Shown in pieces: positions 24,122 through 53,081 of a DNA stretch of 64,000 nt. The DNA is from an uncultured Flavobacteriaceae bacterium. GTDB taxonomy: Bacteria; Bacteroidota; Bacteroidia; Flavobacteriales; Flavobacteriaceae. Made by a program: the position numbers and the translations under genes. Under the pieces are notes generated by a model, which saw only the letters and a list, made by a program, of their open reading frames with translations, searched no databases and was not told the origin of the DNA. The stretch covers positions 930,001 to 994,000 of the forward strand of contig CANNCA010000001.1 of NCBI GenBank assembly GCA_947503005.1, written 5' to 3'. Each line of letters begins with the position of its first letter. Positions within the stretch are counted from its first letter, which is position 1.

Positions 24122-25057
24122 CTACTTTGTTGAGTACCCCCTTTTAAAGCTATAACTAAGTATCACCCCATGTGTATTTCCAAAAGCCAAATTTTTTGGG
24201 GCGGCGTTATAGTGATATATTATTCTGAGACTCTCAAACAAATAGAATCCCGCAAGCATATTAAAAGAAGAATTTGTTCGGTAACCAACACCTAATTCTA
24301 ATATATTTCTATAGCTCAAAGCTAAGTTCAAGTCTCCCTGCAAGGGGGCTCCTTCTTCATATTTTAGGAGTAGACTAGGTTTAAGAAGAAGATTTTCATA
24401 TTGACTTGAAAAAAAACGATATCCAAAATAACCATAGTAAGGACTTCGCAACTCTATGCTATCGTCGGAAGAAAATCGAGTACCCAGAAGATTTGGAGTT
24501 GACAATCCGGCGTAGAAATTCGATTTATTGAACAATACACCTGCCCCTATTGTAGGAATGCTGGCATTTACATTTCGCGAAAACGTAGGATCATTGGTAA
24601 TTCCTAATTCCAATAAATTGTTTTGATATTGTTGCATTCCTGCAGTTATTCCAAAGGAAAGCGAAGGTTTTTGAAATACTTCCCAATAGGGTCTGTTTTC
24701 CTGAAAGTCAAAAAATATTTTATAAGAGTACGCTACAAAAGCACTTGTGGAAGTAGTAACCCCAATTTTATCCTGAATCAAAGCTGCTCCAATACCCATC
24801 TTGTCTGCTTTTAGAGGCATGTGAAAACTAAGATTCAGATTTTCGGGACTTCCATCGATACTACTGAACAAACCATTGGTAGCAAATGTTATTTCACCAG
24901 CTTTGGAAAGACCAGCATAGGCAGAATTTACAATGAAAGGATTGTAGTTGTATTCTGAAAAAACAGGTGTTTGTTGCCCGTAACATTTCATGCCAATCGC
25001 AAAAAAGGAAAGGTAGAATAATCTATATGCTATACTTTTCAAAGAAGTTTGTATCAT
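24122..25057 (-). CDS. PorP/SprF family protein, partner of the 1717-aa adhesin
   Basis: Outer-membrane beta-barrel (311 aa). The signal peptide region is LFYLSFFAIGMKCYGQ. The family opening TPVFSEYNYNPFIVNSAYAGL is clear, as are ITFATNGLFSSIDGSPENLNL and the final HGVILSYSFKRGY. It begins 4 bp after the stop of the 1717-aa type B adhesin, so it is almost certainly co-translated and acts as its secretion or anchoring partner. It is divergent in sequence from the other two PorP copies here. No OmpA gene follows, unlike the other cassette. Confidence 0.93.
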   Translation of the reverse strand: MIQTSLKSIAYRLFYLSFFAIGMKCYGQQTPVFSEYNYNPFIVNSAYAGLSKAGEITFATNGLFSSIDGSPENLNLSFHMPLKADKMGIGAALIQDKIGVTTSTSAFVAYSYKIFFDFQENRPYWEVFQKPSLSFGITAGMQQYQNNLLELGITNDPTFSRNVNASIPTIGAGVLFNKSNFYAGLSTPNLLGTRFSSDDSIELRSPYYGYFGYRFFSSQYENLLLKPSLLLKYEEGAPLQGDLNLALSYRNILELGVGYRTNSSFNMLAGFYLFESLRIIYHYNAAPKNLAFGNTHGVILSYSFKRGYSTK

Positions 25058-25061
25058 CAGA

Positions 25062-28000
25062 CTATCGCTCGAGCACTAAATACCCTTTGGTTTTTTTAAG
25101 ATTGTGCTCACTAGCAACATTTATCGTGAAGAAATAGGTTCCTTCTGGTAATCTTCCCGCTCCTGTTCCGGTCATTTGATTGGCTACACCCGAAAATACA
25201 TTGGTGAAATTATCATAACCTGTAGTCTTAAATATTGCATCACCCCATCGGTTATAAATAGTCACTATATTGTCTGGATAATTTTCAATTCCATCTATAA
25301 CCCAAAAATCATTGATACCATCCGAGTTTGGCGAGAATCCATATTCTGTTTTGTCCGTAGGGGGTTCTACAAAGGTGGTTATAAATTTAGATTCTTGGCA
25401 TCCCTCTTGAATGCCTTGCGCATTATAGGATTTAATCAATACATAGATGATACTCCCTATGGGTAGATCTTCAACTTCATAACTAGTGTTTAAACCAACA
25501 TCAAAATCATCTAAAATGTCATTTTCACCTGAAGCTGTTCCGAGAGTTAATAGGTAACCTTCGGTATTAGTTACTTCGTTCCAAATTAGCGTAGTTGTAG
25601 TCTGCACATTTGATTGACCATCAATTGGCTCATTTACAGTGGTACAAAACGGCACTAAGTCTACACTAGAAAAAGCGGTAGTAAAAGACTGGCTTGCACA
25701 AGTTAAATTTTCTCCGAAGGCATTGTATGGTGTTATTGTCACATATATTTGGGTAGCCGTGGGCAAAGCTTCACCAAGTGAGAATTCTGTAAGCAGTCCT
25801 ACATCTTGATTGTCGACAATGTCCGTACCCCCCGCCGTTGTACCTACTGAAAAACGATATCCATCAGCATCTGATACTGCATTCCACCCGATGCTGGTAT
25901 TGGGGTTTACGGCTTGGGCGCCTTCTGTGGGTGCTATCAGTATAGAACATGACGGAACAGTTGGCGCATCAGACGTCGTAAATTTTTCTTCAAAACAGCC
26001 TTGAGCTTCGCCCAAAGTATTGTAAGCTCCAATGGTCACAAAAATATCGGTACTCTCAGGCAACTCATTTGCTAAATCATACCAGGTTGTACTTCCAACG
26101 TCACCAGAGAAAATATCAGCTTCTCCAGATGAAGTTCCAATTTGCAAAGTGTATCCTTCAGCATTGTCTACCAGATTCCACGCGAAATTTGTCAACGTAT
26201 TCACGGATTCTTCCCCGTTTAATGGCAAAATAAGTGATGTGCATGAAGGAACAGTTGGTGCCGCAGCCGTAGTAAATGAATCTTCCATACATCCGATTGC
26301 TATACCTTCATCATTATATGGTAAAATGGATACATAAATTGTTGTGCTTGGAGGTAAATCTTGTGGTAAATCATAAAAATTCGATAAGCCTATATCTTCC
26401 GAAAATAGATCAGTAGCACCAGAAGAGCTACCTATATTTAAGAAATAGCCAGTTGTATTCGAAACAGCGCTCCAAGCAAAATTCGTAGACATACTTACCA
26501 CTGTAGCACCATTTGTTGGCATTGTCAAGTTAGCACAGCTAGGTGGGGCAGGGGCAGCAGAAGTTGTAAAAGTTTGCTCGGTACACGAAAGCGCCTCTCC
26601 CGAAGCGTTATACGGCGTAACTAAAACATAGATAGTAGTGTTTTCTGGTAAATTTTCAGGAAGATTTATGGCATTGGAGATACCTACATCTTCAGAAAAT
26701 ACATCAGAAGCGCCGCTAGAAGTGCCTATTGTTATTTTATACCCATCTATATTGGGGACTGCATTCCAAGCAAGACTCGTGGTAATTGGCACAGCGTTTT
26801 CACCATTACTGGGCATAGTCAAATTGGTACACTCAGGTAGGCCAATCGCTGCACTTGTGGTAAAACTTTCCTCTTCACAATCCATTGCAAATCCTGAATC
26901 GTTATACGGTACAATACTTACGTAAATTATTTGTTCTGCTGGTAAGATATTCGGTATATCAAAAAAAGTTGTTGCCCCAACATCTTCTGAAAAGATATCG
27001 GTCGCCCCAGGTGCAGTACCGATATTCAAGGTATATCCTTTGGCGGTTGAAATGGCATTCCATGCAAAATTGGTAGCGGTGCTAACATTAATATCACCGT
27101 TTTCAGGAAGCGCGAGGGTCGTACAAACTGGCCTTGTTGGAATACTTGTTGAAAAACTTTCTCCTTCACAGTCAATTGCTTCGCCGGTTTCATTGTATGG
27201 AGTGATCTTCACATATATGGGTCTTCCCTCGGGTAAATCATCCCTGAAATTATAAAATGTGGTCAGACCAACATCTTGAGAAAAGAAATCGTCACCATCT
27301 GGGGTAGTGCCAACCTTTAAAATATATCCAGTTGCATTTTCAGAAATATTCCATGCTAGATCTGTTAAGGGATCGATATCTCTGTCCCCATTTGCTGGTG
27401 CAAGTAAAGTAGTGCATTCCGGTAAGGGTACTTCAGCTGCGGTCTGAAAACTTTCAGAAATACATCCTTCTGCAGAACCTTGAGTATTATAAGGAATAAC
27501 CGTTACATAAATGGTTTGTTCGGTTGGTAAGTCATTATCAGGTTGAAACTCTATTTCCGAACCTACATCGCGTGAGAGTATTTCAGTACCGAAGGCAGTG
27601 GTGCCAATATTTAAGATGTATCCACTGGCATTGCCAACTCTATTCCACCGTACAATGGAGTTTACTTTAACGTCAATCTCACCATTTAGGGGTCTTGAAA
27701 GAGAGGTACAGGGTGGCAGCGCATTTGCAGATGCAATGATAAAACTATCTTCGCCACATTCCAGAGCATCACCTACCTCATTGAACGGCGTAATGGTCAC
27801 GAAAACTTCGGAACCAACTATAAAGTCGACCGCGGGGTCATAGGTTGTACTCCCATCAACCACATTAGCATTTGCGAGGTCATCACCGCCAGGGGTCGTA
27901 CCTAATTTTATGCGATATCCATTTGCGCCACTTGCAACCGACCAACTGATATCTGTGTCGGCAGTAACACCAACACTACCCGCTAGTGGTTGTGTAAGAA

Positions 28001-30215
28001 TGGCACAATCAGGTACGGTGGTCTCACTGCTAGTAAAAAATGATTCCTCAAGACAACCGGCCAGGGAACCATTTTCAAAATAGGGTGTGATGGTTACAAA
28101 GATTTCGGAATTAGGCGGAAAATTATTTTCAAAGTTATACCCACTGACATTACCAACATCTTCTGCATCAAGTATATCCGTTGCACCGGAAGATGTACCT
28201 ACGCTTAATAGAAAACCACAGGCTCCTGATTCGCTTTCCCATTCAATACCCGAATTAATGGGCACATCAACCGACTTGTTCAAGGGATTTATCAGCAGCG
28301 CACAGGTTGGAGTTCCGTTGGCTCCCAAAACCAAGTCATTACGCAACAATACTAGATTTCGTCCATTGTTACCTGGGTCATCACCGTTTTCAAGGGGCAC
28401 CAAATCACTGGTTATTTCGGCATAATAAATACCTGATTCACAAGATCCTGGAGCAGAAATGGTATATTCAGGAGCATCAGCGGCACCTGGGATTTCAACA
28501 CCATCTTTAAACCATTTGTAGTGATTTTGGGCGCCGCGCACAACGGTAGATAAAGTGATTGGCTGACCGGGTACTGTAGTAATCACTTCTCTTATATTCA
28601 CCTTATTTTGACCGGCATACGAGTAGGTCTTAAAAATGTTGCCACCACCTCTTGGCGTGTCACGGTAGTTCAAATATTGGGCATGCTGTTGCTCAAAATC
28701 GCCAAAATGGAAATTATTATTATGAAAACTAAGGCTGAAATTTTCCGTGGTGCCATTTACTAATGAGGTAAAATCTGGTATTTGGTTTGATAATAAATTA
28801 TCATTCAACTTATAGGTCTCCCCACCTAAGGCCCTGCCCGCAGTTTGATAATTCTGAACAATTTGTTCTAAAATATTATTGCCTGAAAGTTGGTTGAACG
28901 AAAGATCAACATTTACAAGCTTGAGGTTTCCGGTGATGTCAAGAGAAGAAATTTTGTTATTTGACATATTTAGGTCAACTAACTCCGTATTTTGAGTTAA
29001 GTCAGGCCCTTCACCTGAAAATAAATTTTTAGAAAGATCTAGGTTGGTCAATAGTACATTTTGACTTAAGTCTATACTTTTTATCCTATTTTCTGAAAGT
29101 CTTAAGTCGACAATTTCCGAGTTGTTTCTTAGGTCGATATTGCTCAACAAATTACTATGGGCCCAAACCATTTCAAGTTTTTGGTTTTTATTTAAATCAA
29201 GCTCTTCTAGATTATTCTCATATACTCTTAAATCAAGTAAGTCCGGATTACCCTCTAAATTCAGGTTTACCATTTTATTATCAGCAAGAATAAGTGTTTC
29301 AAGGGCAGCGTTTGTACGAATATCGATTTCGAATGGAGTTTCCGTTCTATTACCTCTCATATCCAGATAACTCAATTGCGGCATTCCATCAAAAGATAAA
29401 GGGGTTGCAATAGAATGAGGCCCGATATGTATATAATTCATTGTGTTGGATATAGGAAACTTGATAAATTCGGTGAGGGTGAATAATCGTATTTCCTCGA
29501 GATTAACGAATGCTGCTAGGTTACGAAAGTCAGATATATTTCCATTGGCAATTCGAATCGTTTTCAAATTGGTTTTGACATCAGGTAATGTTAAGGTAAT
29601 GAGTTTACCACCGCTTACACTTAGGTCAAGATTTTCTAGATTATCATAAAATGATAAGTCAGCCAGCAGGTCAAAATTTGATGTTATAGAAAGGTATTTT
29701 AAACTCTTTGTTTGTGGGAAAATTATGTTTTCTAAATCTTGAAAATTGAAAATATGAATGTACTCCAATTGAATATTGGAGGAAAGGTCAAGCGTGGTTA
29801 TCAACGAAGTATTAATGGCTTGTATCGACCTTATATCAAGCTTTTTAAGGTTAAGATTTTGACTTAAGTCAAGGGTTGCTAAAAGCACGTTATCTCTGAA
29901 AATCAATTCTTCCAAAGCTGCTAAGTTCTCCAATGGCAATGTTGTGAATTGATTTCTGCCTAAATCAAGTCTTGTGATATTTCTAAAGGCCTGTAAACCA
30001 TCAAAATTAGTAATGTTATCTCCGTTGGTAATAAGCTCTGTTACAGTTTGGGCGTCAGAATTTAGAATATTGCCATTCTGCCCATTTGAATCATGGCCCA
30101 AAGCAATTAACTGTGCTTCAAAATTGGGATCAGGGATGGGAGTGGTTTGGCCAAATGCGGAACAGCAAACAACAAAAAACAAGACAAAAAATAATTTTGT
30201 GGGTGTTTTGATCAT
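25062..30215 (-). CDS. Giant LRR adhesin with ten ~98-aa repeats and a CHU_C (T9SS type B) domain
   Basis: Secreted surface protein of 1717 aa. The signal peptide ends CCSAFGQ (residue 23). Leucine-rich repeats run from about 45 to 480 (LDLGRNQFTTLPL, LRLSENRIKSIDLSQN). An Ig-like module lies near 540-637. Ten tandem FN3-like repeats of about 98 aa run from 638 to 1615, each starting C(T/A)xLxxPxNG, with GYxLxIGTxxGxxDIF and IYVxIxPYN, and a second Cys near residue 83. The CHU_C sorting domain spans about 1620-1717 (YGFSPNSDGINDFWV, IYNRWGDAIFKT, LPEGTYFFTI). Export should use T9SS. The PorP gene follows 4 bp later. A weak promoter-like TTACTTTG lies about 35 bp upstream. The role is probably adhesion or protein binding. 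Confidence 0.93.
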   Translation of the reverse strand: MIKTPTKLFFVLFFVVCCSAFGQTTPIPDPNFEAQLIALGHDSNGQNGNILNSDAQTVTELITNGDNITNFDGLQAFRNITRLDLGRNQFTTLPLENLAALEELIFRDNVLLATLDLSQNLNLKKLDIRSIQAINTSLITTLDLSSNIQLEYIHIFNFQDLENIIFPQTKSLKYLSITSNFDLLADLSFYDNLENLDLSVSGGKLITLTLPDVKTNLKTIRIANGNISDFRNLAAFVNLEEIRLFTLTEFIKFPISNTMNYIHIGPHSIATPLSFDGMPQLSYLDMRGNRTETPFEIDIRTNAALETLILADNKMVNLNLEGNPDLLDLRVYENNLEELDLNKNQKLEMVWAHSNLLSNIDLRNNSEIVDLRLSENRIKSIDLSQNVLLTNLDLSKNLFSGEGPDLTQNTELVDLNMSNNKISSLDITGNLKLVNVDLSFNQLSGNNILEQIVQNYQTAGRALGGETYKLNDNLLSNQIPDFTSLVNGTTENFSLSFHNNNFHFGDFEQQHAQYLNYRDTPRGGGNIFKTYSYAGQNKVNIREVITTVPGQPITLSTVVRGAQNHYKWFKDGVEIPGAADAPEYTISAPGSCESGIYYAEITSDLVPLENGDDPGNNGRNLVLLRNDLVLGANGTPTCALLINPLNKSVDVPINSGIEWESESGACGFLLSVGTSSGATDILDAEDVGNVSGYNFENNFPPNSEIFVTITPYFENGSLAGCLEESFFTSSETTVPDCAILTQPLAGSVGVTADTDISWSVASGANGYRIKLGTTPGGDDLANANVVDGSTTYDPAVDFIVGSEVFVTITPFNEVGDALECGEDSFIIASANALPPCTSLSRPLNGEIDVKVNSIVRWNRVGNASGYILNIGTTAFGTEILSRDVGSEIEFQPDNDLPTEQTIYVTVIPYNTQGSAEGCISESFQTAAEVPLPECTTLLAPANGDRDIDPLTDLAWNISENATGYILKVGTTPDGDDFFSQDVGLTTFYNFRDDLPEGRPIYVKITPYNETGEAIDCEGESFSTSIPTRPVCTTLALPENGDINVSTATNFAWNAISTAKGYTLNIGTAPGATDIFSEDVGATTFFDIPNILPAEQIIYVSIVPYNDSGFAMDCEEESFTTSAAIGLPECTNLTMPSNGENAVPITTSLAWNAVPNIDGYKITIGTSSGASDVFSEDVGISNAINLPENLPENTTIYVLVTPYNASGEALSCTEQTFTTSAAPAPPSCANLTMPTNGATVVSMSTNFAWSAVSNTTGYFLNIGSSSGATDLFSEDIGLSNFYDLPQDLPPSTTIYVSILPYNDEGIAIGCMEDSFTTAAAPTVPSCTSLILPLNGEESVNTLTNFAWNLVDNAEGYTLQIGTSSGEADIFSGDVGSTTWYDLANELPESTDIFVTIGAYNTLGEAQGCFEEKFTTSDAPTVPSCSILIAPTEGAQAVNPNTSIGWNAVSDADGYRFSVGTTAGGTDIVDNQDVGLLTEFSLGEALPTATQIYVTITPYNAFGENLTCASQSFTTAFSSVDLVPFCTTVNEPIDGQSNVQTTTTLIWNEVTNTEGYLLTLGTASGENDILDDFDVGLNTSYEVEDLPIGSIIYVLIKSYNAQGIQEGCQESKFITTFVEPPTDKTEYGFSPNSDGINDFWVIDGIENYPDNIVTIYNRWGDAIFKTTGYDNFTNVFSGVANQMTGTGAGRLPEGTYFFTINVASEHNLKKTKGYLVLER
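25365..28304 (-). repeat. Ten tandem ~294-bp coding repeats
   Basis: The part of the adhesin gene encoding the ten ~98-residue modules. The copies are similar in protein but clearly diverged in DNA, so they are old duplications. Each copy has one Cys at its start and one near its end, which could form a disulfide per module. Copy number may vary between strains. Confidence 0.85.
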
Positions 30216-31623: not shown

Positions 31624-31902
31624 TTTAAATTATTGCCTTTTCATATGTTTTTATGGATGATATTGTAACAGCATTCTCATTATTGACTTTTTCACTCCTT
31701 TCCTTAAAATAAGTTAATGTGGAATTTCATTGAAATAACGCTGACGATTGTACATTTTATCGGCATAATTTTTACTTTCATAGGTTATTCAGGTGTCAAT
31801 CTCTAGATTGTAAATGAAAGTACTTATCTTGGTTATACTAAAATTACTAAGGAAAAGGTTTACGTCAAATTGTAAGTGGTTATTGATATTGGAAAGTTCC
31901 CG

Positions 31903-32982
31903 ATGAGTAAAAATTTGGTGCATGTAAAATACTGTATTTTGGGTTATGGATATGCTTCTTTGATTGCCTACCATAAATTACTCAAAAAGCAGAAGCATGA
32001 AAATGTTCTGATTCTTCAAAATAAAAAGGAGGAGTTTTTTATAACGGTTGAGTATCAAGATATTTTATTTAGTCCATTACCTATTTTTCCTGTAAAAGAA
32101 TCAGAACTTTACAATTCAGATCTTTTTGCTAATGTTCCAAAACAAGACCCTATTACTGTCTCGTTTTCAGAATTTGCCAATTTCAATTACAACGCTTTTG
32201 AAATGAAAAAAGGTTCGCTTGCAGATTTCATGGTCAAAGCGCAAGGGATTGATAAAAACCTGTGTTTGGGCGCCAAACAATGGGGTGAGGAGATGTTTAG
32301 CCTACCTTTTAGTCAAGTGCAATCGAAGATAAAGAGACACTATGTGGAGCCAAAAGGAAATACGAGAATTGGGTATCTGAACGGTCAATCACTTTTTAAA
32401 TACGCCATTGAAGAACTTTCACCAAAGGTCCAAGAATATTCAAGTATTCAACGGATAAATGTTTTAGAAAAAAAGATACATCTTCAAGACACTGTCATTA
32501 GCTATGATAATTTGATTTCCACCATACCATTGAATTACTTGTTTCAATTATGTGGTCTTGATAGTAATACTAATAGTGCCTTTACGGGCTGTCATTTTTA
32601 TTTCTTTACGTATGAAAGTGGTTTAGAAGAAAATAATATGATCTATGATTGTGATTACATTTCTAAGATTATTCGGATTTTTTCAATTCGTGATGATTTC
32701 TTAATGGTTCAGTTAAATGGTAAAGCGTATAATAAAGTAGCAATTTCAGAAATTAAAGATAGAATAGAAGTTTTAGCACCTAGCATTAGGGGTATAGAAT
32801 ATGCAAGAGATCTATACTTACCCATGTGTTATCCTTTAGAACTAATTTCTGACCCAGATACTCTTGAGCGTATGACGTATTTGCAAAATAATAACGTATT
32901 GCCTTTCGGTCGCTTTGGGAATTGGGAGTACTCAGATTTACATGAGTTGGATTGGTCAAGCCTTGACTCCATAGGCGTTTAG
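31903..32982 (+). CDS. FAD/NAD(P)-binding amine-oxidase-like oxidoreductase
   Basis: A 360-aa flavoprotein-like enzyme inside the polysaccharide locus but on the opposite strand. The ATG at 31903 is chosen; an earlier GTG adds nine unlikely residues. The N-terminus has a Rossmann-type dinucleotide fold, YCILGYGYASLIAYHKL, with G14 and G16. Later segments resemble UDP-galactopyranose mutase and protoporphyrinogen-oxidase-like proteins: NGQSLFKYAIEEL, YDNLISTIPLNYLF, and a C-terminal LPFGRFGNWEYSDLHELDW. The exact substrate is unclear; modification of a sugar or a lipid carrier is one possibility. A weak promoter (TTG at 31748, TAATTTTT at 31766) lies upstream. Next on the strand is the GH16-like lipoprotein, 103 bp away. 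Confidence 0.7.
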   Translation: MSKNLVHVKYCILGYGYASLIAYHKLLKKQKHENVLILQNKKEEFFITVEYQDILFSPLPIFPVKESELYNSDLFANVPKQDPITVSFSEFANFNYNAFEMKKGSLADFMVKAQGIDKNLCLGAKQWGEEMFSLPFSQVQSKIKRHYVEPKGNTRIGYLNGQSLFKYAIEELSPKVQEYSSIQRINVLEKKIHLQDTVISYDNLISTIPLNYLFQLCGLDSNTNSAFTGCHFYFFTYESGLEENNMIYDCDYISKIIRIFSIRDDFLMVQLNGKAYNKVAISEIKDRIEVLAPSIRGIEYARDLYLPMCYPLELISDPDTLERMTYLQNNNVLPFGRFGNWEYSDLHELDWSSLDSIGV

Positions 32983-33085
32983 ATAGATGATTTTTTTAAT
33001 AAGAAGAATGGGCAATTAAATTTTATCAAACAACTGAATGTTGGCTTATTTTTTTTTACAAATAGGAAACCTTAATTTGAAACAT

Positions 33086-33979
33086 ATGAATGTTGTTAAG
33101 ATGTTAGTTTTAGTAGGCTTGAGTTTTGTTACTTTTAGCTGCACAAGGCCAGACGAAAATTCAGATCCGGTGAATTCTGGAAAGCCCGAAATTAACGATT
33201 CTTCGGTGCTTACCGATGATGTAAATTCAGCGGATTATTGGTCAAAAACAAAATTGGTATGGAACGATGAATTTGACGGAAATGAATTGTCTAATGACAA
33301 TTGGATTATAGAAACTTCTTTAGCTGGAATAGGCTATCCAGGTTGGCAGAATTTTACAAGTGAAGGAAATTTGGAGGTTAGTGATGGGACCCTAAAAATT
33401 ATATCAAAAAAAACAGGGGAGGGACAAAAAGCAGGGGATTATTCTTCAGCTCGCATTAATAGCTCCATTGCTTTTACCTATGGAAGATTAGAAATTCGCG
33501 CCAAATTGCCAAATGGAAATGGAAGCGGACTTTGGTCGAAATTATTTCTTTTGGGAAATAATATTGGCATAGTAGGTTACCCGAAGAGCGGGCAAATTTC
33601 TATTATGGAATACACAAGTCACCTTCAAGATCATATTTTTAATACTGTACATACCGCGGAGAATGTTCTAACAGGTCAAAAAATTGCTGCAAATTCAGGT
33701 TATATTCCAATAGAGACTACCGAAGAAGAATTTCATTTATATGGAATTTTATGGACGGATAAGTATTTGAAATTCTATATAGATGATATAGATAATATTA
33801 TCTATTCGTTCGCACAACCACCCTCTCCAAACGAAAGTAATTGGCCTTTTTCAAAATCATTCTATTTTGTGATGGATACTGCCATTGGCAGTGAATTTTC
33901 AGATGGAAATGGTGTTGATGATAATATTTTTCCGACTACTTTAGAAATTGATTACGTGCGAGTCTACCATGCAGAATAA
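33086..33979 (+). CDS. GH16-fold lipoprotein with a degenerate catalytic motif
   Basis: Exported lipoprotein (297 aa). The start at the ATG at 33086 gives a signal ending VTFSC with the lipid Cys. The body has the GH16 beta-jelly-roll signature: KLVWNDEFDGNELSNDNW, YGRLEIRAKLPNGNGSGLW, FNTVHTAEN, FHLYGILWTDKYLKFYIDD, and the final LEIDYVRVYHAE. The catalytic segment, normally ExDxxE, reads GQISIMEY: Gln170 and Ser172 replace the nucleophile Glu and assisting Asp, and only Glu175 remains. Standard GH16 hydrolysis is therefore unlikely. It may bind a beta-glucan or galactan or help retain polysaccharide at the surface. It may be co-transcribed with the FAD oxidoreductase. Confidence 0.88.
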   Translation: MNVVKMLVLVGLSFVTFSCTRPDENSDPVNSGKPEINDSSVLTDDVNSADYWSKTKLVWNDEFDGNELSNDNWIIETSLAGIGYPGWQNFTSEGNLEVSDGTLKIISKKTGEGQKAGDYSSARINSSIAFTYGRLEIRAKLPNGNGSGLWSKLFLLGNNIGIVGYPKSGQISIMEYTSHLQDHIFNTVHTAENVLTGQKIAANSGYIPIETTEEEFHLYGILWTDKYLKFYIDDIDNIIYSFAQPPSPNESNWPFSKSFYFVMDTAIGSEFSDGNGVDDNIFPTTLEIDYVRVYHAE

Positions 33980-34063: not shown

Positions 34064-34948
34064 CTACAAATAAGGGTTTATAGGGAGTTGTTCAATGTGA
34101 AATCCTTTTGATTTTAAATCTTTCAAGAGATTACTTTCAATGTTGTCTTTAAATAATATTACAGCTGCTAAACCATAATCCATCAACCTAAGTTTGCATA
34201 AAAGATTCTGTACTCCTAACGCAAGAGAAAATGTTATTTTGGCTTTACTGAAGTCTTTATTGGGCTTACTCGATACTGATTCAGCATAGAAGTCATTGAA
34301 TCTTAGATATGCCAAATACTTATAGTTCATCGCTATCATCGCTTTGGAAATTTCCTTTAAATTGATTCTATAAATGAAATTTCCCGATGATTCGAATTGC
34401 AAACTTTCATCCTTTCTCCAAACTTTTTTAATACCTTTTTTCAAAATATCCAGAACTCTAACTGTGCCTTCTTGAGGCTCTATCAACACTACTCCCTTTT
34501 TGGCTACTCTCAACATTTCATACAAGCCGACAAATGGTCGTGGGAAATGGTGAAATGCTTCTTTACAGAAAACGTAATCATAAGCTTCGTCTTTCTCCAA
34601 AATGTTTTCGGCATTGATTTCCTTATATTTCTTTATATATCCCAATTCGTATGCAACAGATATAGTTTCATCGGAAATACTACTGGCCACAACATCTAAT
34701 CCTTCATTCTCAATATAATGAGCGTCAGAGCCAAAATTACCATCTCCTATGGTAATCCAAGTGTTTTTTTTGGATGATTTAATCAAAGGGTCAACCATAC
34801 CACGCATTCTATCATGACGCCATGCGTCTATACTATTTGGATTTGAATATGCAGCAGGCAACCTATTTTCAAGCTTTTGATTTTTTTCCCATGCCTGATG
34901 TTTTGAATAACTGCTTTGGGTATTCATGCGTTTTCTATTTGTGCTCAT
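34064..34948 (-). CDS. Class I SAM-dependent methyltransferase
   Basis: Methyltransferase (294 aa; an in-frame ATG 21 bases later is an alternative start). Motif I is TWITIGDGNFGSDAHYI near residue 85, followed by VVASSISDETISVAYE, the motif YDYVFCKEAFHHFPRPFVGLYE and the post-motif GVVLIEPQEG. These fit a class I fold. The location inside the polysaccharide locus suggests it methylates a sugar or a lipid-linked intermediate, but the acceptor is unknown. It is convergent with the GH16-like gene and separated by about 200 bp from the GT26 gene upstream, so it may be a separate unit. Confidence 0.85.
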   Translation of the reverse strand: MSTNRKRMNTQSSYSKHQAWEKNQKLENRLPAAYSNPNSIDAWRHDRMRGMVDPLIKSSKKNTWITIGDGNFGSDAHYIENEGLDVVASSISDETISVAYELGYIKKYKEINAENILEKDEAYDYVFCKEAFHHFPRPFVGLYEMLRVAKKGVVLIEPQEGTVRVLDILKKGIKKVWRKDESLQFESSGNFIYRINLKEISKAMIAMNYKYLAYLRFNDFYAESVSSKPNKDFSKAKITFSLALGVQNLLCKLRLMDYGLAAVILFKDNIESNLLKDLKSKGFHIEQLPINPYL

Positions 34949-35146: not shown

Positions 35147-35887
35147 CTAGTTTTTAAGATTATCTGTGAATTTTTCATTTATTAAATAATATCCAAAAAT
35201 AAAACCATAGTATATATATCTTTTCCACATGCGCTTAGGTTCCTTTAACAGACGACCCAACCATTCAAGACCTAGATCTATCCAGACTTTACCTGGCCTT
35301 TCAACGGTGCCAGCATAAAAATCAAATACAGCACCTATGGAGCAGATTACTTTTGAATCAAGTTTAAGCTTATACTCGTAACTCCACTTTTCTTGTTTCG
35401 GAGCGGTCATACCAACAAATAATACATCGGGTTTGAATTGATTTACCTTTTTGATCATTTGGTTCGTATCCTCTAAACTAAAAACGGGTTTGTAAGGTGG
35501 TGAATACGCCCCAAATCTAATATTAGGAAATTCGCTGTGAATTCTCTCCTTTATTTTTGAAAGAGTGGCTTCAGAAGCACCCAGATAGAAGCAAGAACCA
35601 GATTCTCGGTTTAATTTTTCAAGATAAAAATGGTGAATATCCGCACCTGCAATCTTTTTGATTTTCTTGCCGTACAAAAACTTAACAGCCCACACTATGG
35701 CAATTCCGTCAGGAAGTAAAACATCTGATTGGCTTAAAGCCTCCTTAAAATCTTGATCTTTCTGTGCTATACAATAGGAGTATTGATTGATAGTACTAAT
35801 CAAAGTTTTTTTCGAAGACGGTATATTTTCAGGTTTGTCAGCAAATACCAAATATTCGAGAAATTCTATGGTATAACTATCATTCAT
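35147..35887 (-). CDS. WecG/TagA/CpsF family glycosyltransferase (GT26)
   Basis: A 246-aa enzyme of the GT26 family, which adds ManNAcA-type or similar residues to a lipid-linked sugar. Family hallmarks are present: LLPDGIAIVWAVKFLYGKKIKKIAGADIHHFYLE near 70-100, GSCFYLGASEATLSKIKERI, PDVLFVGMTAPKQEKWSYEY near 154-173, and CSIGAVFDFYAGTVERPGKVW near 182-200. Its length matches the family. It probably acts at the cytoplasmic membrane on undecaprenyl-PP-sugar. It lies 38 bp after the acyltransferase gene on the same strand. Confidence 0.92.
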   Translation of the reverse strand: MNDSYTIEFLEYLVFADKPENIPSSKKTLISTINQYSYCIAQKDQDFKEALSQSDVLLPDGIAIVWAVKFLYGKKIKKIAGADIHHFYLEKLNRESGSCFYLGASEATLSKIKERIHSEFPNIRFGAYSPPYKPVFSLEDTNQMIKKVNQFKPDVLFVGMTAPKQEKWSYEYKLKLDSKVICSIGAVFDFYAGTVERPGKVWIDLGLEWLGRLLKEPKRMWKRYIYYGFIFGYYLINEKFTDNLKN

Positions 35888-40861: not shown

Positions 40862-42256
40862 CTAATCCAATTTGGTAATGGAAAAATTGGAAGTGCCCTC
40901 GCTATTAAAATAAACTGTGTTTGAAAAAGCATTAGTAGATACGACAATTGTAATTACATCATTAGCTTTTAATTGTAAAAGGTCGTTAATAGCTATACTT
41001 GATAGAACTGTTTTATCATTGGAACCATTGTTTGCAGCCACATTAATAGCTCCTACGGATAAGCCATTTATATGTATTCTGGCACTTATAGTTGCAATTT
41101 GTCCAGTAGTAGATGTATTCGCTCCTATTAAAGAAAGAATGCAGCGTAAGTCGTATCGTCCGGATAGTTTTACGATTAGCGAATTACCATTTACCTCATA
41201 AATTGAATTAGCCCCGTCTTTAAAGTTCTCTGAAGCAAAAATTGGAGCTTCGGTCTTTCCAAAACTTAAACCGATTCGCATTTCATTGTTTGTCCACCTT
41301 CCGGATAAATACTTGAATGAATTTGGGGTTTGTTTGCCGGAAACAGAATTAGTAACAGACCTATGGAATACCCCATTGGCATCTACTGTGACATAATTAT
41401 CGGTAGTTAGGGAAGGGGCTAACTGCCGTACTCTAAAAGTTCCGTTGACATCTAAGGTTTCAGTTGGGGTTCGTGTTTCTATACCCATGCCACCCAAAAT
41501 TTTTATAAACAATCTATGCTCTTTATTGATCTCATCAATATTCAGGCCTGCACCTCTAAAATTTATATTAAAAAGGGTATTGCCTTGATTTTCATCTTGA
41601 AAGGAAATCATTTTTTGACTTTCACCAAGTCCTCGTATTATAAGAGGTGTAGCTTCTTGATTAGCATTGTTCAGTAGCATTTGGGTTGCTCCGATGTCAC
41701 CATTTACCGTGAGTTTGTTGTTGAGATTGGTATTTGTTCCTATGCCAAGGCGATTGGTAACAGTATCCCAATAAAGCTCACTATTGTTTTCTGTTGCATT
41801 AGTATCCGTACCAGCAAAGAATATAGAGCCCGGGTCTCCGGTTAATGCATTTCCATTGTCATTATTAAAGGATATCAGTGTCTCTATCCCATTGGCATCT
41901 GTAAAGGTATAAGTATTGTTTCCATTATCAATCAAAGTTGCGCCATCTCTTCCTCCTCCTTCAGTGCAAAGATTTTTCCAGCCGTTTGCATCGAAATAGA
42001 ATATGCATTGTTGATCAATATTGTATACAACAGCCCCTTGCAGGGGTTCAATTAATTGCATCTGGGTATCGGTCACTCTCGTTATGACTAAGGCGCGTGA
42101 GGTACTTTCTAGTTCTAAAACAGAAGCAGTGTCGATAGTATTCGGGTTATCGCCAATTTTAACCTGTGCCTGAGTCTTGATGAGCAAAAGAAAAAACAGA
42201 AAAAACATTCCAATTCTTCTTGAAATTGCAACTAATGGGGCTAATTTTTTTTTCAT
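40862..42256 (-). CDS. Secreted protein with Bacteroidota stalk-like repeats and a C1q/TNF-like C-terminus
   Basis: A 464-aa exported protein. The ATG at 42256 is used; a TTG five codons upstream is rejected, and a -7 box (TAGTTTTG, 42279-42286) fits this start. The signal peptide is hydrophobic and ends IKTQA. Residues about 32-110 carry the common surface motif IGDNPNTIDTASVLELESTS followed by IFYFDANGWKNLC. The middle (110-300) resembles tail-fibre-like sequence (DVNGTFRVRQLA, DANGVFHRS). The last 150 residues form a beta-rich domain (SGRYDLRCILSLIGANTS, ISARIHINGLSVGAINV), similar to bacterial C1q/TNF jelly rolls. Such proteins often trimerise. It may bind the exopolysaccharide or a host or diatom glycan. 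Confidence 0.75.
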   Translation of the reverse strand: MKKKLAPLVAISRRIGMFFLFFLLLIKTQAQVKIGDNPNTIDTASVLELESTSRALVITRVTDTQMQLIEPLQGAVVYNIDQQCIFYFDANGWKNLCTEGGGRDGATLIDNGNNTYTFTDANGIETLISFNNDNGNALTGDPGSIFFAGTDTNATENNSELYWDTVTNRLGIGTNTNLNNKLTVNGDIGATQMLLNNANQEATPLIIRGLGESQKMISFQDENQGNTLFNINFRGAGLNIDEINKEHRLFIKILGGMGIETRTPTETLDVNGTFRVRQLAPSLTTDNYVTVDANGVFHRSVTNSVSGKQTPNSFKYLSGRWTNNEMRIGLSFGKTEAPIFASENFKDGANSIYEVNGNSLIVKLSGRYDLRCILSLIGANTSTTGQIATISARIHINGLSVGAINVAANNGSNDKTVLSSIAINDLLQLKANDVITIVVSTNAFSNTVYFNSEGTSNFSITKLD

Positions 42257-42278
42257 TCTAGGGAACTTCAATAGCGTT

Positions 42279-43944: not shown

Positions 43945-45210
43945 TTATCGAGACAAGAAGTATTCTTTCAAAACTTCGTCTGACATATTACGCACAGATT
44001 TTGAATAGCAGATACCTATTGAAATCCATACCAGAATATAGTTTAGTGTAAAAGTGGTAACGGTTGAGGGGTATAAAGAAATTAGCCAAAGAATAATCCA
44101 GAAGGCAGCTGCTTTCGATAGCGTATTCTTTGAAAGAAATAAGCCTTGGATAACTGCAGGTATGGCAATTAATAATAATAACCCTAAACTAATAATACCG
44201 CCTTTTAAAATAATGTTCAGATAATCTGTTTCGATACCTTTTCGATATCCAGGGGTCGGACTATCGACATCTATTCCAATCGGTGCAGCGACCATACCAC
44301 TCATGCCTCGTCCAATTATCCAGTCTTTGAGCTGCATATCGGCGTAGTAAAAGTCCTCTACCCCACTACGTGTATCTTCGGTTCCACGTTCTATGGTCTT
44401 ACTTAGAAGTTTTGAATCTTCGATATCAAGAGATGTAACAGCATAGCCTAAAATTAAGCCTCCGGCAAGGAAAGAAAATATCAAAAGAAGTATCTTCCGC
44501 TTATTAAGGTATATGAATATTAAAAAGGTGAAAATAAAAATACTCCCAGACATGAAAATCAGACCTCTTCGAGCTCTGTAAACAGCAAAAAGGAAGACGG
44601 CAGTTATTACTAAGAATGCAATTATTCGACTTTTTTTAGGTTGATAATTGAATGTCATTAATAGAAACCCGCAAGGTAGGGCAAGTGTTTTGACGAAAAC
44701 TTCCAAACGATCTCTGCTGCTATCGTCTGTATTATCCAGAAATTCTGGAGCACCCAAACCTATATGAATTAGATAAAATACACCTAGCACAAGTGCAATA
44801 AAAAAAATAAACTTATAGAATATTGGAGGTTTTGTTATTAAAAGTATTAGCGGAACGCTATATAAAAAGACCCCGCTACCCGGATCGAAAAGCGTATTCT
44901 TGATAAACTCATAATTAAGGGTGAAACCTCTTAATACAACTGTAAAAAGCCAGAGTAGGTAAAAGGTATATAGAATTTTAAGATATCTATTTTCGAACCG
45001 TAGGGATATCAACGAAATGGATGAGATTAGGATAAGCCCAATACCAAATAAACGCATAAGATCACAAACTATAAAAATAGGGCTTACGGTAACTGACATT
45101 GTATACCCTAAAGTGTAAATGACAAAACCTAACAAAAACAGTTTCAACATTTTTCCATGCTTAAAACTGGCATCTATTTGGTGTAAGTCTCTAGTCGTAA
45201 AGTTTTGCAT
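43945..45210 (-). CDS. O-antigen polymerase/ligase-like membrane protein (Wzy-type)
   Basis: A 421-aa polytopic inner-membrane protein with about ten hydrophobic segments (LFLLGFVIYTLGYTMSV, IILWLISLYPSTV and others). A large loop near residues 280-330 contains charged and Gly-rich sequence (WIIGRGMSGMVAAPIGID), as in Wzy/WaaL proteins where catalytic Arg and His residues lie in big periplasmic loops. It is the only candidate polymerase in the locus and sits among glycosyltransferases close to the flippase, so a Wzy role in joining repeat units is inferred. Sequence alone cannot separate Wzy from a ligase. Confidence 0.8.
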   Translation of the reverse strand: MQNFTTRDLHQIDASFKHGKMLKLFLLGFVIYTLGYTMSVTVSPIFIVCDLMRLFGIGLILISSISLISLRFENRYLKILYTFYLLWLFTVVLRGFTLNYEFIKNTLFDPGSGVFLYSVPLILLITKPPIFYKFIFFIALVLGVFYLIHIGLGAPEFLDNTDDSSRDRLEVFVKTLALPCGFLLMTFNYQPKKSRIIAFLVITAVFLFAVYRARRGLIFMSGSIFIFTFLIFIYLNKRKILLLIFSFLAGGLILGYAVTSLDIEDSKLLSKTIERGTEDTRSGVEDFYYADMQLKDWIIGRGMSGMVAAPIGIDVDSPTPGYRKGIETDYLNIILKGGIISLGLLLLIAIPAVIQGLFLSKNTLSKAAAFWIILWLISLYPSTVTTFTLNYILVWISIGICYSKSVRNMSDEVLKEYFLSR

Positions 45211-47658: not shown

Positions 47659-49029
47659 TTAACGAATCCAAATTCCTTTTTTCTTTTTATGAATGATCAT
47701 ATGATACTGAATTGGTGCTAAAATAAATGCATTAAAATTCGCAATTACTGAAGCAACGAATAGCGCATAAACACCCATCTCGAAATAGTTGATAAAAAGT
47801 AAAGTTAAAGCGATGTACAAAATTGGACTTAGAATACTTGCCCAGAACTGCAAACGGAGTGCGCTTATTCCATTTAAAAAACTCACATATTTTGATCCAA
47901 AAATAGAGGTCATAAAAAATATGAGTCCCCATAACGATAGGTAAAATTCAATTTCAACGGTGTCTTTGCCCAACCAGAGGTCATAAATTGTGTCTGATAA
48001 GTAAAGCATAACACAACCAATTAAAAAAAAGCCGATATTCAAGATGTTGTATTTCTTGATACTTTTTTTAATCCAACCAATATCCTCTTTTACGTATGCC
48101 TCTGTTGCAGCCGACCAAAATGGAGTCAGGAATATCATGAACCCCATGCTTAATATGCCAAAATACTTGAACACAATATTGTAATTGGTGACATCTTCAG
48201 GGCCAAAGTTTCTCGATATAATGAAATTGGCGGTTTGGAACTGAACCAGCCCGGCAATCTGGATAACAAAGAATACAACGCCAAGATTAAAAAGGCTTTT
48301 GGCATAAGAAAATTTTACCTTTGATAGCCTCGGACTAAACGCCTTATACTTTCCTCGAAAGAAAAATATATTCGCGGCAATTAGTGCGAGTAGGGGTGCA
48401 GCACATAGCGCAAGGCCAAGGTTTACAAGAGAACCTTCGGTTGTTTTTACGAGAATTACGATTATGATTAAAGAAATCAATTGCCCAATAACATCAATTA
48501 GCGAGGCTTGCGCGGGTTCTTGATCCGCCGCTATGATTGTGCTAAGGGTCCGTAATATAAATTGCATACAGAAATAGGTAAAAACGATTACTGCAAGTTT
48601 TGAAACGTCAGAGCTGTATTCCGGGGATATTTTAAGAATATCGGACCAGTTTAGAAACGGATTAATCACCAGAAAAAGCACCCAAATTGATATAAAGACG
48701 ATAGCTAGTATTCCATAAGTTGTACTTACATAAATTTGAGCCGATGAATCATCACCTTTTGCTCTTGCTTCTGCAAATTTGTTTCGTAAGCCGTGGGTAA
48801 TACCAATGTCAAAAAAACTGAACCACGCAACAATGGAGCTCAATGTTAACCAGATGCCGTATCGTGAGGGATTTACATAGTTCAAGGTTAATGGAACAAC
48901 CACCAAACTGATAACAATACTTGCCGCTTTTATTATAAAGGAAGACAGAATATTCTTATTTGCACGAGCTGTTCGTTCATGACCTCCAAATATGGTGTTT
49001 CTGACTTTTTGTATGGCTTTTTGAATCAA
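47659..49029 (-). CDS. Wzx-type oligosaccharide flippase
   Basis: Polytopic inner-membrane flippase (456 aa, about 12-14 segments) that moves lipid-linked repeat units to the periplasm. The opening SSFIIKAASIVISLVVVPLTLNYVNPSRYGIWLTL is typical of MATE/Wzx proteins, as is the later YAKSLFNLGVVFFVIQIAGLVQ. No ATG is available near the 5' end: codons upstream reach a stop, and the best start is TTG at 49029, an uncommon choice. It sits between the acyltransferase and a GT gene with short gaps (39 and 24 bp). Confidence 0.92.
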   Translation of the reverse strand: MIQKAIQKVRNTIFGGHERTARANKNILSSFIIKAASIVISLVVVPLTLNYVNPSRYGIWLTLSSIVAWFSFFDIGITHGLRNKFAEARAKGDDSSAQIYVSTTYGILAIVFISIWVLFLVINPFLNWSDILKISPEYSSDVSKLAVIVFTYFCMQFILRTLSTIIAADQEPAQASLIDVIGQLISLIIIVILVKTTEGSLVNLGLALCAAPLLALIAANIFFFRGKYKAFSPRLSKVKFSYAKSLFNLGVVFFVIQIAGLVQFQTANFIISRNFGPEDVTNYNIVFKYFGILSMGFMIFLTPFWSAATEAYVKEDIGWIKKSIKKYNILNIGFFLIGCVMLYLSDTIYDLWLGKDTVEIEFYLSLWGLIFFMTSIFGSKYVSFLNGISALRLQFWASILSPILYIALTLLFINYFEMGVYALFVASVIANFNAFILAPIQYHMIIHKKKKGIWIR

Positions 49030-49827: not shown

Positions 49828-52251
49828 TTATTGTTCCACGAAAGAACCATATTCTTCTCCATAAACCATATAGTCATAACCATAACCGTAATTATAATCA
49901 CCCTTAACCAAACCTCTTTGTTTTATGCCATTGAAAACCAGTGAAATATTTTTTAGGCCCTTCAAAATTCCTGAATCATCAAGATGTTTTATTACTTTAA
50001 GCGGTGTTTTTCCGTGTCTTATAACGTAAAGGGTTTCATCGCTATACTCGGCCAGCAGTTTAACATCGGCCACTAGATTTACGGGTGCGGAATCAATAAT
50101 TACATAGTCGAAATCACGTGATAACTTCTCAAAAAGAAAGTCTAGTTTACCATTTAAGAGAAGTTGGGTATGATTTTTTCCAGACTTACCTACAGGAACC
50201 ACAAATAAATTTTTGTTATTAGGAGAATTAGCCAATACCTCATTGTAATCAGCTCCATAAGAAAGAAAATCTAAAATGCCCTTGTGATTTACAAGATTAA
50301 AGAAACGTGATGTTTGTGGTTTTAAAATGTCCATGTCAAGTAGCGCAACTTTTTTACCAGATTGGGCAAGGCAAAAAGCAAGATTGGTACAGACAAAACT
50401 TTTGCCTTCGCCTGCAATACTAGAAGTGACTAATATTTTCTTTTTAGTAAAATTACGGCTGTAAAGCCCCAAGGAAGCGCCGAGTTGCCTAAAAGAATCG
50501 ACTAGTACAGCTTCACCGGGCTTAATTTTAGCGTCAGCATCTTTTGAATTAGAATAAAAAATGTTCCGAAGCCCGAGTTTATTAGTTAAGAGGGTTAGAT
50601 TATTAGATGGTTTTTGTGATTCGTTATATTCATCAACTACACTTAGATGGGGTAATTCTAAAATAACTGGATAGTCTACGAATTTTTCTATTTCTGAACG
50701 GAATAAGACATTTTTGTTCATCATTTCTTTGAAGATGATGAACCCTAGACCAATGCTTAATGCTAACACTAAAGAAACCAAGTAAATAAGAGAAGAATTT
50801 GGAGAAACAGGCCCAGCGGATGATTGCGCCAAATCAACAACCCGGCCATCACCTCCATTTGGAGCATAACTCAACGCCGTCTCTTCTCTTTTTTGCTGCA
50901 AAAATGAATATAATTCGTTTTTAATTTCTTTACCCCGTTCTATTTCTAAAAGCGCTCTTTCTTTTTCCGGTATATTGTTAAGTGCGGATTCTGACCTATT
51001 GACATTGTAACTCAGATTACCTAAACTTGCTCTAAGATTGTTTTTCTGATTTCGAATGCTTTCCAGAATACTAGGTCTTATTTTATTTATTTCGTTCGCA
51101 AGGGATGTAAGGATCGGATTATTTTCTGCCGTCGTTTTTCGTAACCTTTCATATTCGATTTCGGAATCATAAAGCTTTCCTAAAAGTTGTGTCAAAACAG
51201 GATCCTCCACACCCAAAGTGGAAGGTACCAAACCAGCTTGATCATTTTTTGAAACTACGTACTGTTCTACCTTATTTAAAATGGCCAACTGTCTGCTGCT
51301 ACGGGCTATTTGACGATCGTATTCACCTACATCTTGTAAATAAAGTTTTCCTTGTTCACTAAGATTTACAACACCTTCCTCGGATCTAAAACGTTGTATA
51401 GAAAATTCAAGCTCGTTAAGCTCTTTTTCAACTTTGTTCATGCGCTCCTCAATAAAAGTAAGGGTGTTTGTAGCAAGTTCATTTCGATCTGAAACGGCTT
51501 TTTGATTGTAAGCTGAAATTAAATGGTTCAATATATTTTCACCTCTTTGTGGAATTGGGTCTTTGTAAGTAAGACGAACGACAGTCGATAATTTATCTGT
51601 GGGGTTCGCTTCAAGCCCATTTAATAAGGCTCCGGTCAATGCCTTTGGGTGGACAAAGGTGTAGAAAAGATCTCTTTTCGTACTACTTAGTTTATTGGGG
51701 TTTAATTTGAATTTTGTTTCTCCAAAAGCCGGGCCACGAACCCACTCGTCAAGGGGGTAAGTCTTGTCTTTGATTTTGACCATTTTCTTAATCGAGTCGT
51801 ATTCAAAATATACCTTTAGGGGACTTGAATTTTGGGGTTGAAAAACCTTATCCGGATTTTTTAATTCAATAAGTATCGGTGAGGTATTATAGGCAGGTTT
51901 TGACCCTATTAATTTGTTCTCAAAAACTGGGGCGTACAGCTGTAGGTTTTTGACAACTTGATTCATTAAAGCTCTTGACTGAATAACTTCTATTTCATTT
52001 TCAACAATTTTTTTTGAATCGAAAGGGTTCATACCTTCCATTACTTCGTAATCATCTACACCTTTATTTTCATCTTTGATGATGAGGGTTGCAGCCGCCT
52101 CATAGATAGGGGTCGTTGTTTTTAGATACCCCCAAGCTCCTATTAAAAACAATGGAATCAATAGTGCAAATAGTGGCCAATAGGGCAAAAACATAGATAA
52201 GAGCATACGCAAGATGTTCTCATCAGTATTCGGATTATTCACTTCATGCAT
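49828..52251 (-). CDS. Wzc-type polysaccharide co-polymerase / BY-kinase
   Basis: An 807-aa inner-membrane protein that controls chain length and export with Wza. The Wzz domain is N-terminal, with a first membrane segment YWPLFALLIPLFLIGAWGY and a second near residues 490-512. A long periplasmic coiled coil lies between (EERMNKVEKELNELEFSIQR). The tyrosine-kinase domain has Walker A SIAGEGKSFVCTNLA (about 605-615), Walker A' VALLDMDILKPQTS, Walker B FDYVIIDSAP (near 715), and a C-terminal Tyr cluster with seven Tyr in about 25 residues (NYGYGYDYMVYGEEYGSF). The Wza-like gene ends 14 bp upstream. No partner phosphatase gene was seen in the window. Confidence 0.95.
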   Translation of the reverse strand: MHEVNNPNTDENILRMLLSMFLPYWPLFALLIPLFLIGAWGYLKTTTPIYEAAATLIIKDENKGVDDYEVMEGMNPFDSKKIVENEIEVIQSRALMNQVVKNLQLYAPVFENKLIGSKPAYNTSPILIELKNPDKVFQPQNSSPLKVYFEYDSIKKMVKIKDKTYPLDEWVRGPAFGETKFKLNPNKLSSTKRDLFYTFVHPKALTGALLNGLEANPTDKLSTVVRLTYKDPIPQRGENILNHLISAYNQKAVSDRNELATNTLTFIEERMNKVEKELNELEFSIQRFRSEEGVVNLSEQGKLYLQDVGEYDRQIARSSRQLAILNKVEQYVVSKNDQAGLVPSTLGVEDPVLTQLLGKLYDSEIEYERLRKTTAENNPILTSLANEINKIRPSILESIRNQKNNLRASLGNLSYNVNRSESALNNIPEKERALLEIERGKEIKNELYSFLQQKREETALSYAPNGGDGRVVDLAQSSAGPVSPNSSLIYLVSLVLALSIGLGFIIFKEMMNKNVLFRSEIEKFVDYPVILELPHLSVVDEYNESQKPSNNLTLLTNKLGLRNIFYSNSKDADAKIKPGEAVLVDSFRQLGASLGLYSRNFTKKKILVTSSIAGEGKSFVCTNLAFCLAQSGKKVALLDMDILKPQTSRFFNLVNHKGILDFLSYGADYNEVLANSPNNKNLFVVPVGKSGKNHTQLLLNGKLDFLFEKLSRDFDYVIIDSAPVNLVADVKLLAEYSDETLYVIRHGKTPLKVIKHLDDSGILKGLKNISLVFNGIKQRGLVKGDYNYGYGYDYMVYGEEYGSFVEQ

Positions 52252-52265: not shown

Positions 52266-53081
52266 CTAACGATTTACCACGATAATGATTCCTAAAGAGA
52301 TGGCACTTAGAACGACCGGTATCCAGTCGCGGTAACCAGTAGAACTCGATACCTTTGCTTTATTTGGCTCGACGTAGATAATATCGTTTGACTGTAAATA
52401 GTAATAGGGAGAGCTGAAAATTGCGTTTGTAGTAAGATCGATTTTTCGCATTCGTTTGATTCCATTTTCCTCTCTGATTAGCGTAACATTATCGCGTCTT
52501 CCATAAATAGTTATGTCTCCAGCCAGACCTAATGCTTCCAACAGCGATATTTTTTCATTCGGAATAATCAATACCGATGGATTCTTTACTTCACCTAAAA
52601 CCGAAATTTTATAATTCAAATAACGAATGTCAACAATAGGTTCTATGAGTAGTTTTTTATCAATAAGCGTCTGTGTAATTTCTTTTCTTAATTCACTTTT
52701 TGCTTTTCCAGCCGCTACAATATCACCTAAAATAGGAAACTTTATATATCCATCTTGGCCCACTAAATAGCCTGACGCCCTTGTGGTATTGCCAGCGTTA
52801 GTCGAAGATTGTGCCACCACTTGGTTTTGAAGATTGAATATTTCCGTAGCTTCAGGGTTCGCGCTGCTTACCGTAATACTGAGAAGGTCGTTCTTTTGAA
52901 TAATGGGTTCTAAACCTTGATTGTCGTTAGTATAGGTCATACTGGACGAACTATTGAAATATGTCGCATTTTTGACATTTCCACAGGAAGAAAACAACGC
53001 ACTTATAAAAATAGTGAATAGTATTATTAAGGGTCGAATCGACCATTTATCGACTTTTATATATTTAGTTTTTTGTTGCAT
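52266..53081 (-). CDS. Wza-type polysaccharide export lipoprotein
   Basis: Outer-membrane export protein (271 aa). A lipoprotein signal ends ALFSSCGN. The Poly_export domain begins near 58 with QGLEPIIQKNDLLSITVSSANPE and includes YLVGQDGYIKFPILGDIVAAGK. An SLBB-like domain follows (YKISVLGEVKNPSVLIIPNEKISLLEALGLAGDITIYGRR). A C-terminal helix (WIPVVLSAISLGIIIVV) may insert in the membrane; it is short compared with E. coli Wza. Together with the Wzc-type kinase 14 bp downstream it forms the export core. Confidence 0.94.
   Translation of the reverse strand: MQQKTKYIKVDKWSIRPLIILFTIFISALFSSCGNVKNATYFNSSSSMTYTNDNQGLEPIIQKNDLLSITVSSANPEATEIFNLQNQVVAQSSTNAGNTTRASGYLVGQDGYIKFPILGDIVAAGKAKSELRKEITQTLIDKKLLIEPIVDIRYLNYKISVLGEVKNPSVLIIPNEKISLLEALGLAGDITIYGRRDNVTLIREENGIKRMRKIDLTTNAIFSSPYYYLQSNDIIYVEPNKAKVSSSTGYRDWIPVVLSAISLGIIIVVNR

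Follow-up and report, generated by a model that had tools for sequence, protein, structure and literature searches.

The closest described relatives of the protein treated here are the GH16 laminarinases ULam111 (PDB entry 5wut), from Flavobacterium, and ZgLamA. In ULam111, Glu118 is taken as the nucleophile and Glu123 as the proton donor, Asp120 pairs with His137, and the sugar cleft is lined by Trp98, Trp102, Trp113 and Arg71, with Trp98 and Trp102 reported to stack in the cleft (PMC5595797). Since the nucleophile-dead variant E269S of ZgLamA still binds laminarin with a Kd of 1.78 uM (PMC4606783), a dead GH16 protein can act as a lectin. Non-catalytic GH16 proteins are already known elsewhere. 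The insect relatives (the beta-1,3-glucan recognition proteins, or GNBP, and Aedes GH16.4) are described as lacking the catalytic glutamates and are considered glucan-binding (PMC6403176), and Rv0315 of Mycobacterium tuberculosis (4wzf), a bacterial protein of the GH16 fold, is reported to have no glucanase activity and, inactive as it is, to show no laminarin binding (PMC4606783). In the retention of polysaccharide, the outer-membrane lectin Wzi of the E. coli group 1 capsule has been proposed to hold Wzx/Wzy-made polysaccharide at the surface (PMC3791409).

The protein described in this work is encoded in the window (the whole 64,000-nucleotide stretch of DNA from an uncultured Flavobacteriaceae bacterium that was analysed). 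It shares with ULam111 and ZgLamA the fold, the position of the catalytic motif and the main cleft aromatics (37% identity to 5wut by Foldseek), and differs from both in that the nucleophile and assisting Asp are replaced, a Pro-Ala pair has become Ser-Lys and the GWGN loop is lost. Like the insect proteins it is a GH16 relative missing a catalytic glutamate, but those are animal immune proteins, whereas this is a bacterial protein of an exopolysaccharide (EPS) locus with an independent loss. Rv0315 is a structural match of the window model, yet it has both catalytic glutamates, is inactive through an open cleft and is not described in that source as an EPS-locus protein (PMC4606783). By analogy, Wzi would be the nearest functional parallel, although it is an integral outer-membrane barrel of unrelated fold. 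ExoK, a GH16 glycanase encoded in the succinoglycan locus of rhizobia, is likewise linked to an EPS locus; it is an active depolymerase, whereas the motif of the window protein is degenerate, and the NCBIfam ExoK model matches the latter weakly (E 2.7e-06, 27 bits against a cut-off of 350). A GH16 gene on a Sinorhizobium plasmid, a potential ExoK control, lay in unannotated sequence and was set aside. Literature searches at the level of titles and the starts of abstracts found no non-catalytic GH16 protein tied to bacterial EPS loci.

Degenerate catalytic motif of the window protein

The gene occupies 33086 to 33979 on the plus strand and encodes 297 amino acids. Its product belongs to GH16, as it matches PF00722 at E 2e-13 (50.6 bits against a Pfam cut-off of 22) and the best Foldseek matches of its model are GH16 laminarinases; its top PDB sequence match is ULam111 (E 7.9e-42). 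The original prediction had read the catalytic motif as Q-I-S-I-M-E at residues 170 to 175, with Gln for the nucleophile and Ser for the assisting Asp, and translation together with alignment to 5wut confirms this reading: Q170, S172 and E175 (codons CAA, TCT and GAA; motif at 33593 to 33610, plus strand) align to E118, D120 and E123 of ULam111. The active-GH16 motif E-x-D-x-(x)-E is absent from the protein, and, much as in the insect GNBP type of GH16 protein without catalytic glutamates, the nucleophile is lost, with the acid/base retained here and other pairs gone in two relatives. The laminarinase cleft signature has also given way, with WSKLF, GIGY and YPKSGQISIME found against WPAxW, GWGN and WPxxGEIDIME.

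With the start at 33086, which aligns with the starts of relatives, Cys19 follows a short hydrophobic segment (33086 to 33142, plus strand, Cys19 included) that may be a lipoprotein signal (TFSC), and an upstream in-frame ATG at 33038 could extend the N-terminus by 33038 to 33085 (plus strand) to a total of 313 amino acids. The TFSC lipobox is weak by eye. An N-terminal Cys at the equivalent place after a hydrophobic stretch in all three degenerate proteins described below suggests that the window protein is a lipoprotein, which would then carry a lipid anchor and may be exposed at the surface. Rfam and tRNA scans found nothing, the number of sites in a promoter scan was no higher than in shuffled sequence, and a plasmid search gave no match at an identity of at least 60%.

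Fold and remodelled cleft

The AlphaFold2 model of the window protein, built from 35 aligned sequences, has a mean pLDDT of 82.2, with residues 1 to 43 below 50; its top Foldseek match is 5wut (E 4.3e-24, with a TM of 0.91 by target and 0.71 by query). The expectation that the rest of the fold would be well kept holds for the fold itself and fails for the cleft, which is remodelled. Besides the three motif positions (E118, D120 and E123 equivalent to Q170, S172 and E175), H137 of ULam111 corresponds to H189, W98 to W150, W102 to F154, W113 to Y165 and R71 to R123. The cleft strand W150-S151-K152-L153-F154 (33533 to 33547, plus strand) reads W-P-A-x-W in ordinary relatives, and the cleft changes comprise Pro-Ala to S151-K152, Trp to F154, Trp to Y165 and GWGN to GIGY.

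Two further degenerate proteins, described below, can be compared at the same positions. The ULam111 W98 and R71 positions are retained in 3/3, and the W102 (F/W/W) and W113 (Y/F/Y) positions are aromatic in all three. At the A100 position all three carry Lys, against Ala in 22/22 ordinary relatives; since this residue sits two positions from Trp98 and from Trp102 on one strand (149 to 157 in the model), the side chain of the Lys (K152 in the window protein) is predicted to be directed towards the cleft interior. The GWGN Trp is missing in all three, Asn38 in the window protein, and the His137 position is lost in one relative (G199). Lys152, Thr190, Thr284 and His295 are among the residues that the three have in common and that almost no ordinary relative carries. 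A shared replacement catalytic acid was also considered and rejected, as no new Asp or Glu occurs at the positions at which the three proteins all differ from 90% or more of the 22 ordinary relatives.

A small clade with different catalytic losses

Searches with the window protein (P0001) covered 199 and 397 family genomes, 14 of the genus, the genome_contigs set (65 loci) and the genera of G399 (9 genomes) and G269 (15 genomes), while P0003 was run against 394 relatives and P0004 against 395 genomes from the order; these search sets overlap. Close relatives occur in Eudoraea, Maribacter, other Flavobacteriaceae and Carboxylicivirga. Two further proteins are degenerate: one of the same genus (G199:C1:431787-432680, 52% identity) that reads WAKLWLLG and GVIDIMKY, and one of another genus (G399:C1:622095-622991, 49% identity) that reads WSKIWMLG and GELIFMTY. 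The triad positions are Q/S/E in the window protein, V/D/K in G199 and E/I/T in G399, such that the lost pairs are nucleophile and Asp, nucleophile and acid/base, and Asp and acid/base, respectively, and no replacement residue is common to any two of the three. As no catalytic carboxylate is common to all of them, the GH16 mechanism is not retained by them as a clade. The suggestion that the window protein is a pseudo-enzyme is thereby well supported, with each of three members of a small clade missing a different pair of catalytic carboxylates, and the protein is probably inactive as an enzyme. The original prediction had covered neither the changes elsewhere in the cleft nor these relatives.

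Degeneracy of this kind is rare among relatives. Matches at E of at most 1e-55 occur in 15 of the 397 family genomes, and 2 of those 15 proteins are degenerate (those of the window and G399). Of 133 aligned rows spanning the motif (each distinct over a 60-residue segment, with later-fetched loci outside the count), 125 read E-D-E; four rows are the three degenerate proteins, that of G199 entering twice (also as a cut piece), and the remaining four (L114/L115, E 5e-13 to 9e-12) are too distant for safe motif alignment. All 22 distinct ordinary relatives examined have the intact motif. The degenerate motif of the window protein is thus more than alignment noise, and sequencing error or plain decay is disfavoured as a source, since degenerate motifs stand in open frames of three separate genomes with dS of at least 1.9. 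A further GH16-like sequence in G399 (G399:C10:380863-381387, L203) scores 20.4 bits, below the Pfam cut-off, and the E-x-D-x-E pattern was not found in it.

In trees built without the motif columns (window residues 146 to 178), the window, G199 and G399 proteins form one clade with bootstrap/SH-aLRT values of 99/94 (36 rows) and 98/92 (35 rows). Its sister clade comprises five proteins, all from genus g32 (G269, G773, G775, G776 and G777), and the eight together have 98/92 in the 35-row tree. The sister clade has E-D-E in 5/5 and WAK in 4/5, with WAS in G773; ordinary relatives at WPA have Pro in 21/22 and Ala in 22/22. The simplest order is that the cleft changed first and catalysis was lost later. 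Read off the 35-row tree by eye rather than from a computed reconstruction, the pattern calls for at least two separate losses of the nucleophile and likewise of the Asp. The terminal branches of the degenerate proteins measure 0.66-0.79 where the median is 0.26, and that of one ordinary relative (L155) reaches 0.85. Among the three pairs dN is 0.35-0.38, with dS 1.9, 2.2 or saturated; the figures show that the frames were preserved, but over a span that includes time before catalytic loss.

The exopolysaccharide locus and its counterparts

The original prediction placed the gene in an exopolysaccharide locus, and this is supported for all three degenerate clade members. In the window, the EPS locus identified by Pfam extends over 30767 to 54726 on the minus strand, with a sugar transferase at 53371, a Wza-type export protein at 52266, a Wzc-type protein at 49828, a Wzx-type flippase at 47659, WecG/TagA at 35147, and eight glycosyltransferases and two hexapeptide proteins within the same span. 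The GH16-like gene and its upstream neighbour at 31876 to 32982 lie on the plus strand amid these minus-strand genes. A gene of Wzi-like function would lie within a Wzx/Wzy locus carrying Wza and Wzc, and the window gene lies in such a setting, with Wza-, Wzc- and Wzx-type genes all present. Wzy was not identified by Pfam in this locus; two minus-strand proteins with no Pfam or NCBIfam match (40862-42271, 469 aa, and 43945-45210, 421 aa) are candidate Wzy polymerases. A Methyltransf_11 methyltransferase (34064-34948, minus strand) lies between WecG and the GH16-like gene and has no counterpart in the otherwise similar EPS locus of G210. The edge of the locus (24122-30215, minus strand) is occupied by a type IX secretion (CHU_C) protein of 1717 aa, whose LRR and lectin-like matches are weak, together with its PorP/SprF partner, a pair conserved beside the EPS locus in G199, G210 and G203.

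The degenerate gene of G199 lies between Wzx (38%) and WecG (72%), and that of G399 shares a cluster with Wza (73%), Wzc (29%), Wzx (38%) and WecG (64%). Many glycosyltransferases are not common to the three EPS loci, which therefore probably make different polysaccharides. We compared contexts by searching for homologues (E <= 1e-8) of the window EPS proteins in about 10 kb on each side of each GH16 gene. Such homologues flank 3/3 degenerate genes against 0/24 ordinary loci, of which 22 are distinct (L063/L177 and L064/L169 being treated as duplicates because their contigs are equal in length) and four (L058, L125, L128 and L168) have flanks shortened by contig ends. Next to the ordinary paralogue of G199 itself are genes for uvrD, an M20 peptidase and a glutamate synthase; around the ordinary genes of G202, G206 and G209 the neighbours are similar in size to these. 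In the sister clade, 2/5 loci have an EPS homologue, with one match each (WecG in G773, a glycosyltransferase in G777). Overall this gives 3/3 degenerate genes against 2/27 others, for which a calculation by hand yields 10/4060, or ~0.0025, with ordinary loci that are syntenic and not independent.

Pfam places glycosyltransferases and WecG near the G773 gene and glycosyltransferases near the G777 gene. These intact GH16 genes (L223 5649-9243 and L222 11135-13559) also adjoin beta-helix proteins or polysaccharide lyases, and such mixed neighbourhoods would fit EPS-processing enzymes. A strict rule that only dead GH16 genes occur in glycan loci is broken by the two genes, and since 2/5 intact sister-clade genes adjoin glycan-synthesis genes, context alone is no marker of a lectin. 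G210 has counterparts for most window EPS genes (Wzx 83%, Wzc 72%, glycosyltransferases 44-70%), yet 60 kb of its EPS region contains neither a GH16-like gene nor a homologue of the 31876 neighbour, and the same holds for 40 kb of G203 with Wza, Wzc and WecG. The GH16-like gene is therefore an accessory rather than a core EPS gene.

The same-strand upstream neighbour (31876 to 32982, plus strand, 368 aa) has no match in Pfam, NCBIfam or PHROGs. All three genomes that carry a degenerate GH16 gene encode a homologue of it (49-56% identity), against 0/11 other genomes tested; in the 397 family genomes a homologue was found in 5, including G011, G239 and G393. A strict pairing is ruled out by these last three, which have no GH16-like sequence in 20 kb around the neighbour homologue. 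As the neighbour occurs in genomes without a nearby GH16 gene, and in G399 on a different contig from it, the relation is one of association only. A single-sequence model of the neighbour has a mean pLDDT of 32.8, and its PDB matches are very weak, mostly to UDP-galactopyranose mutase (E ~0.45).

Discussion

On balance, we consider it probable that the window protein is a non-catalytic GH16 protein of the laminarinase fold and a likely lipoprotein, belonging to a small EPS-locus clade and most likely binding the polysaccharide of its own locus at the outer membrane. An ancestral GH16 enzyme would have changed its cleft strand from Pro-Ala to Ala/Ser-Lys, and on the branch to the window, G199 and G399 proteins the catalytic carboxylates would have been lost more than once, while the fold was retained together with the Arg in the cleft and the stacking aromatic positions. 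The surviving protein would most likely sit on the outer membrane, bound to polysaccharide from its own locus, where it may hold this polysaccharide at the cell surface or guide its assembly, much as Wzi does in the E. coli group 1 capsule. A role in polysaccharide binding or anchoring, raised in the original prediction, seems plausible given the cleft aromatic and Arg positions, the shared Lys, the lipoprotein-like N-terminus and the gene context. Binding by the window protein is not to be assumed, because residues of the beta-1,3-glucan cleft are lost and Rv0315 is reported not to bind laminarin (PMC4606783); we prefer a lectin whose ligand is something other than plain beta-1,3-glucan, in the simplest case its own locus's EPS, which is perhaps acidic. 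Counting against this explanation are the less than ideal TFSC lipobox, the finding of just three members, the probable differences among their polysaccharides, the absence of the gene from the G210 EPS locus and the glycan-synthesis genes beside two intact sister-clade genes.

A rather unlikely alternative is that the dead jelly roll binds a protein partner, as a structural or assembly part of the EPS export machine. The context with Wza and Wzc and the loss of some sugar-contact residues would agree with this, but retention of the cleft Arg and aromatic positions does not, and G210 has a similar EPS machine without the gene. It is improbable that the protein serves nutrition as a surface glycan-binding protein for environmental beta-glucan, its position in the EPS locus having little meaning: laminarinases are indeed the closest relatives, and many relatives are probably nutritional enzymes, yet all three degenerate genes are in EPS loci, the beta-1,3-glucan contacts are lost, and no SusC/SusD pair occurs in 20.9 kb around the window gene or among the Pfam-scanned window genes. 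We find it very improbable that the protein is still an enzyme that uses another residue or, in EPS processing, an activated substrate. The window protein does have Glu175, the acid/base, as well as His189, and the sister clade has an intact triad with two members adjoining glycan-synthesis genes, but no new Asp or Glu is common to the three and a different pair is lost in each. Least likely of all is a functionless enzyme decaying into a pseudogene, since the long end branches, the different residues lost and the accessory nature of a gene absent from the G210 and G203 EPS regions are set against three open frames with saturated dS and dN of 0.35-0.38, a Lys, aromatic positions and Cys in common, and equally long end branches in some ordinary rows.

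Returning to the EPS-binding lectin, a broader proposal can be made tentatively: these proteins may form a class of EPS lectins derived from a laminarinase, in which the cleft Lys and the association with glycan loci preceded repeated catalytic loss at different residues and alongside differing polysaccharides. Such a cleft would recognise an acidic sugar in the cell's own EPS and tether it, making the protein a possible Bacteroidota counterpart of Wzi. The natural series available here, from ordinary enzymes through a sister clade with a changed cleft and intact triad to three lineages dead at different residues, allows one to ask if a new role precedes catalytic loss. To our knowledge, the retention of Wzx/Wzy-made exopolysaccharide on the Bacteroidota surface is poorly known, and a glucanase turned lectin inside a glycan-making locus, if true, would be a concrete candidate for it. 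Annotation by PF00722 alone would label these degenerate proteins glucanases; in the window, G199 and G399 genomes, the family matches 12 proteins, the L203 sequence of G399 among them, and the 11 above cut-off are the three EPS-locus copies and eight proteins with an intact motif.
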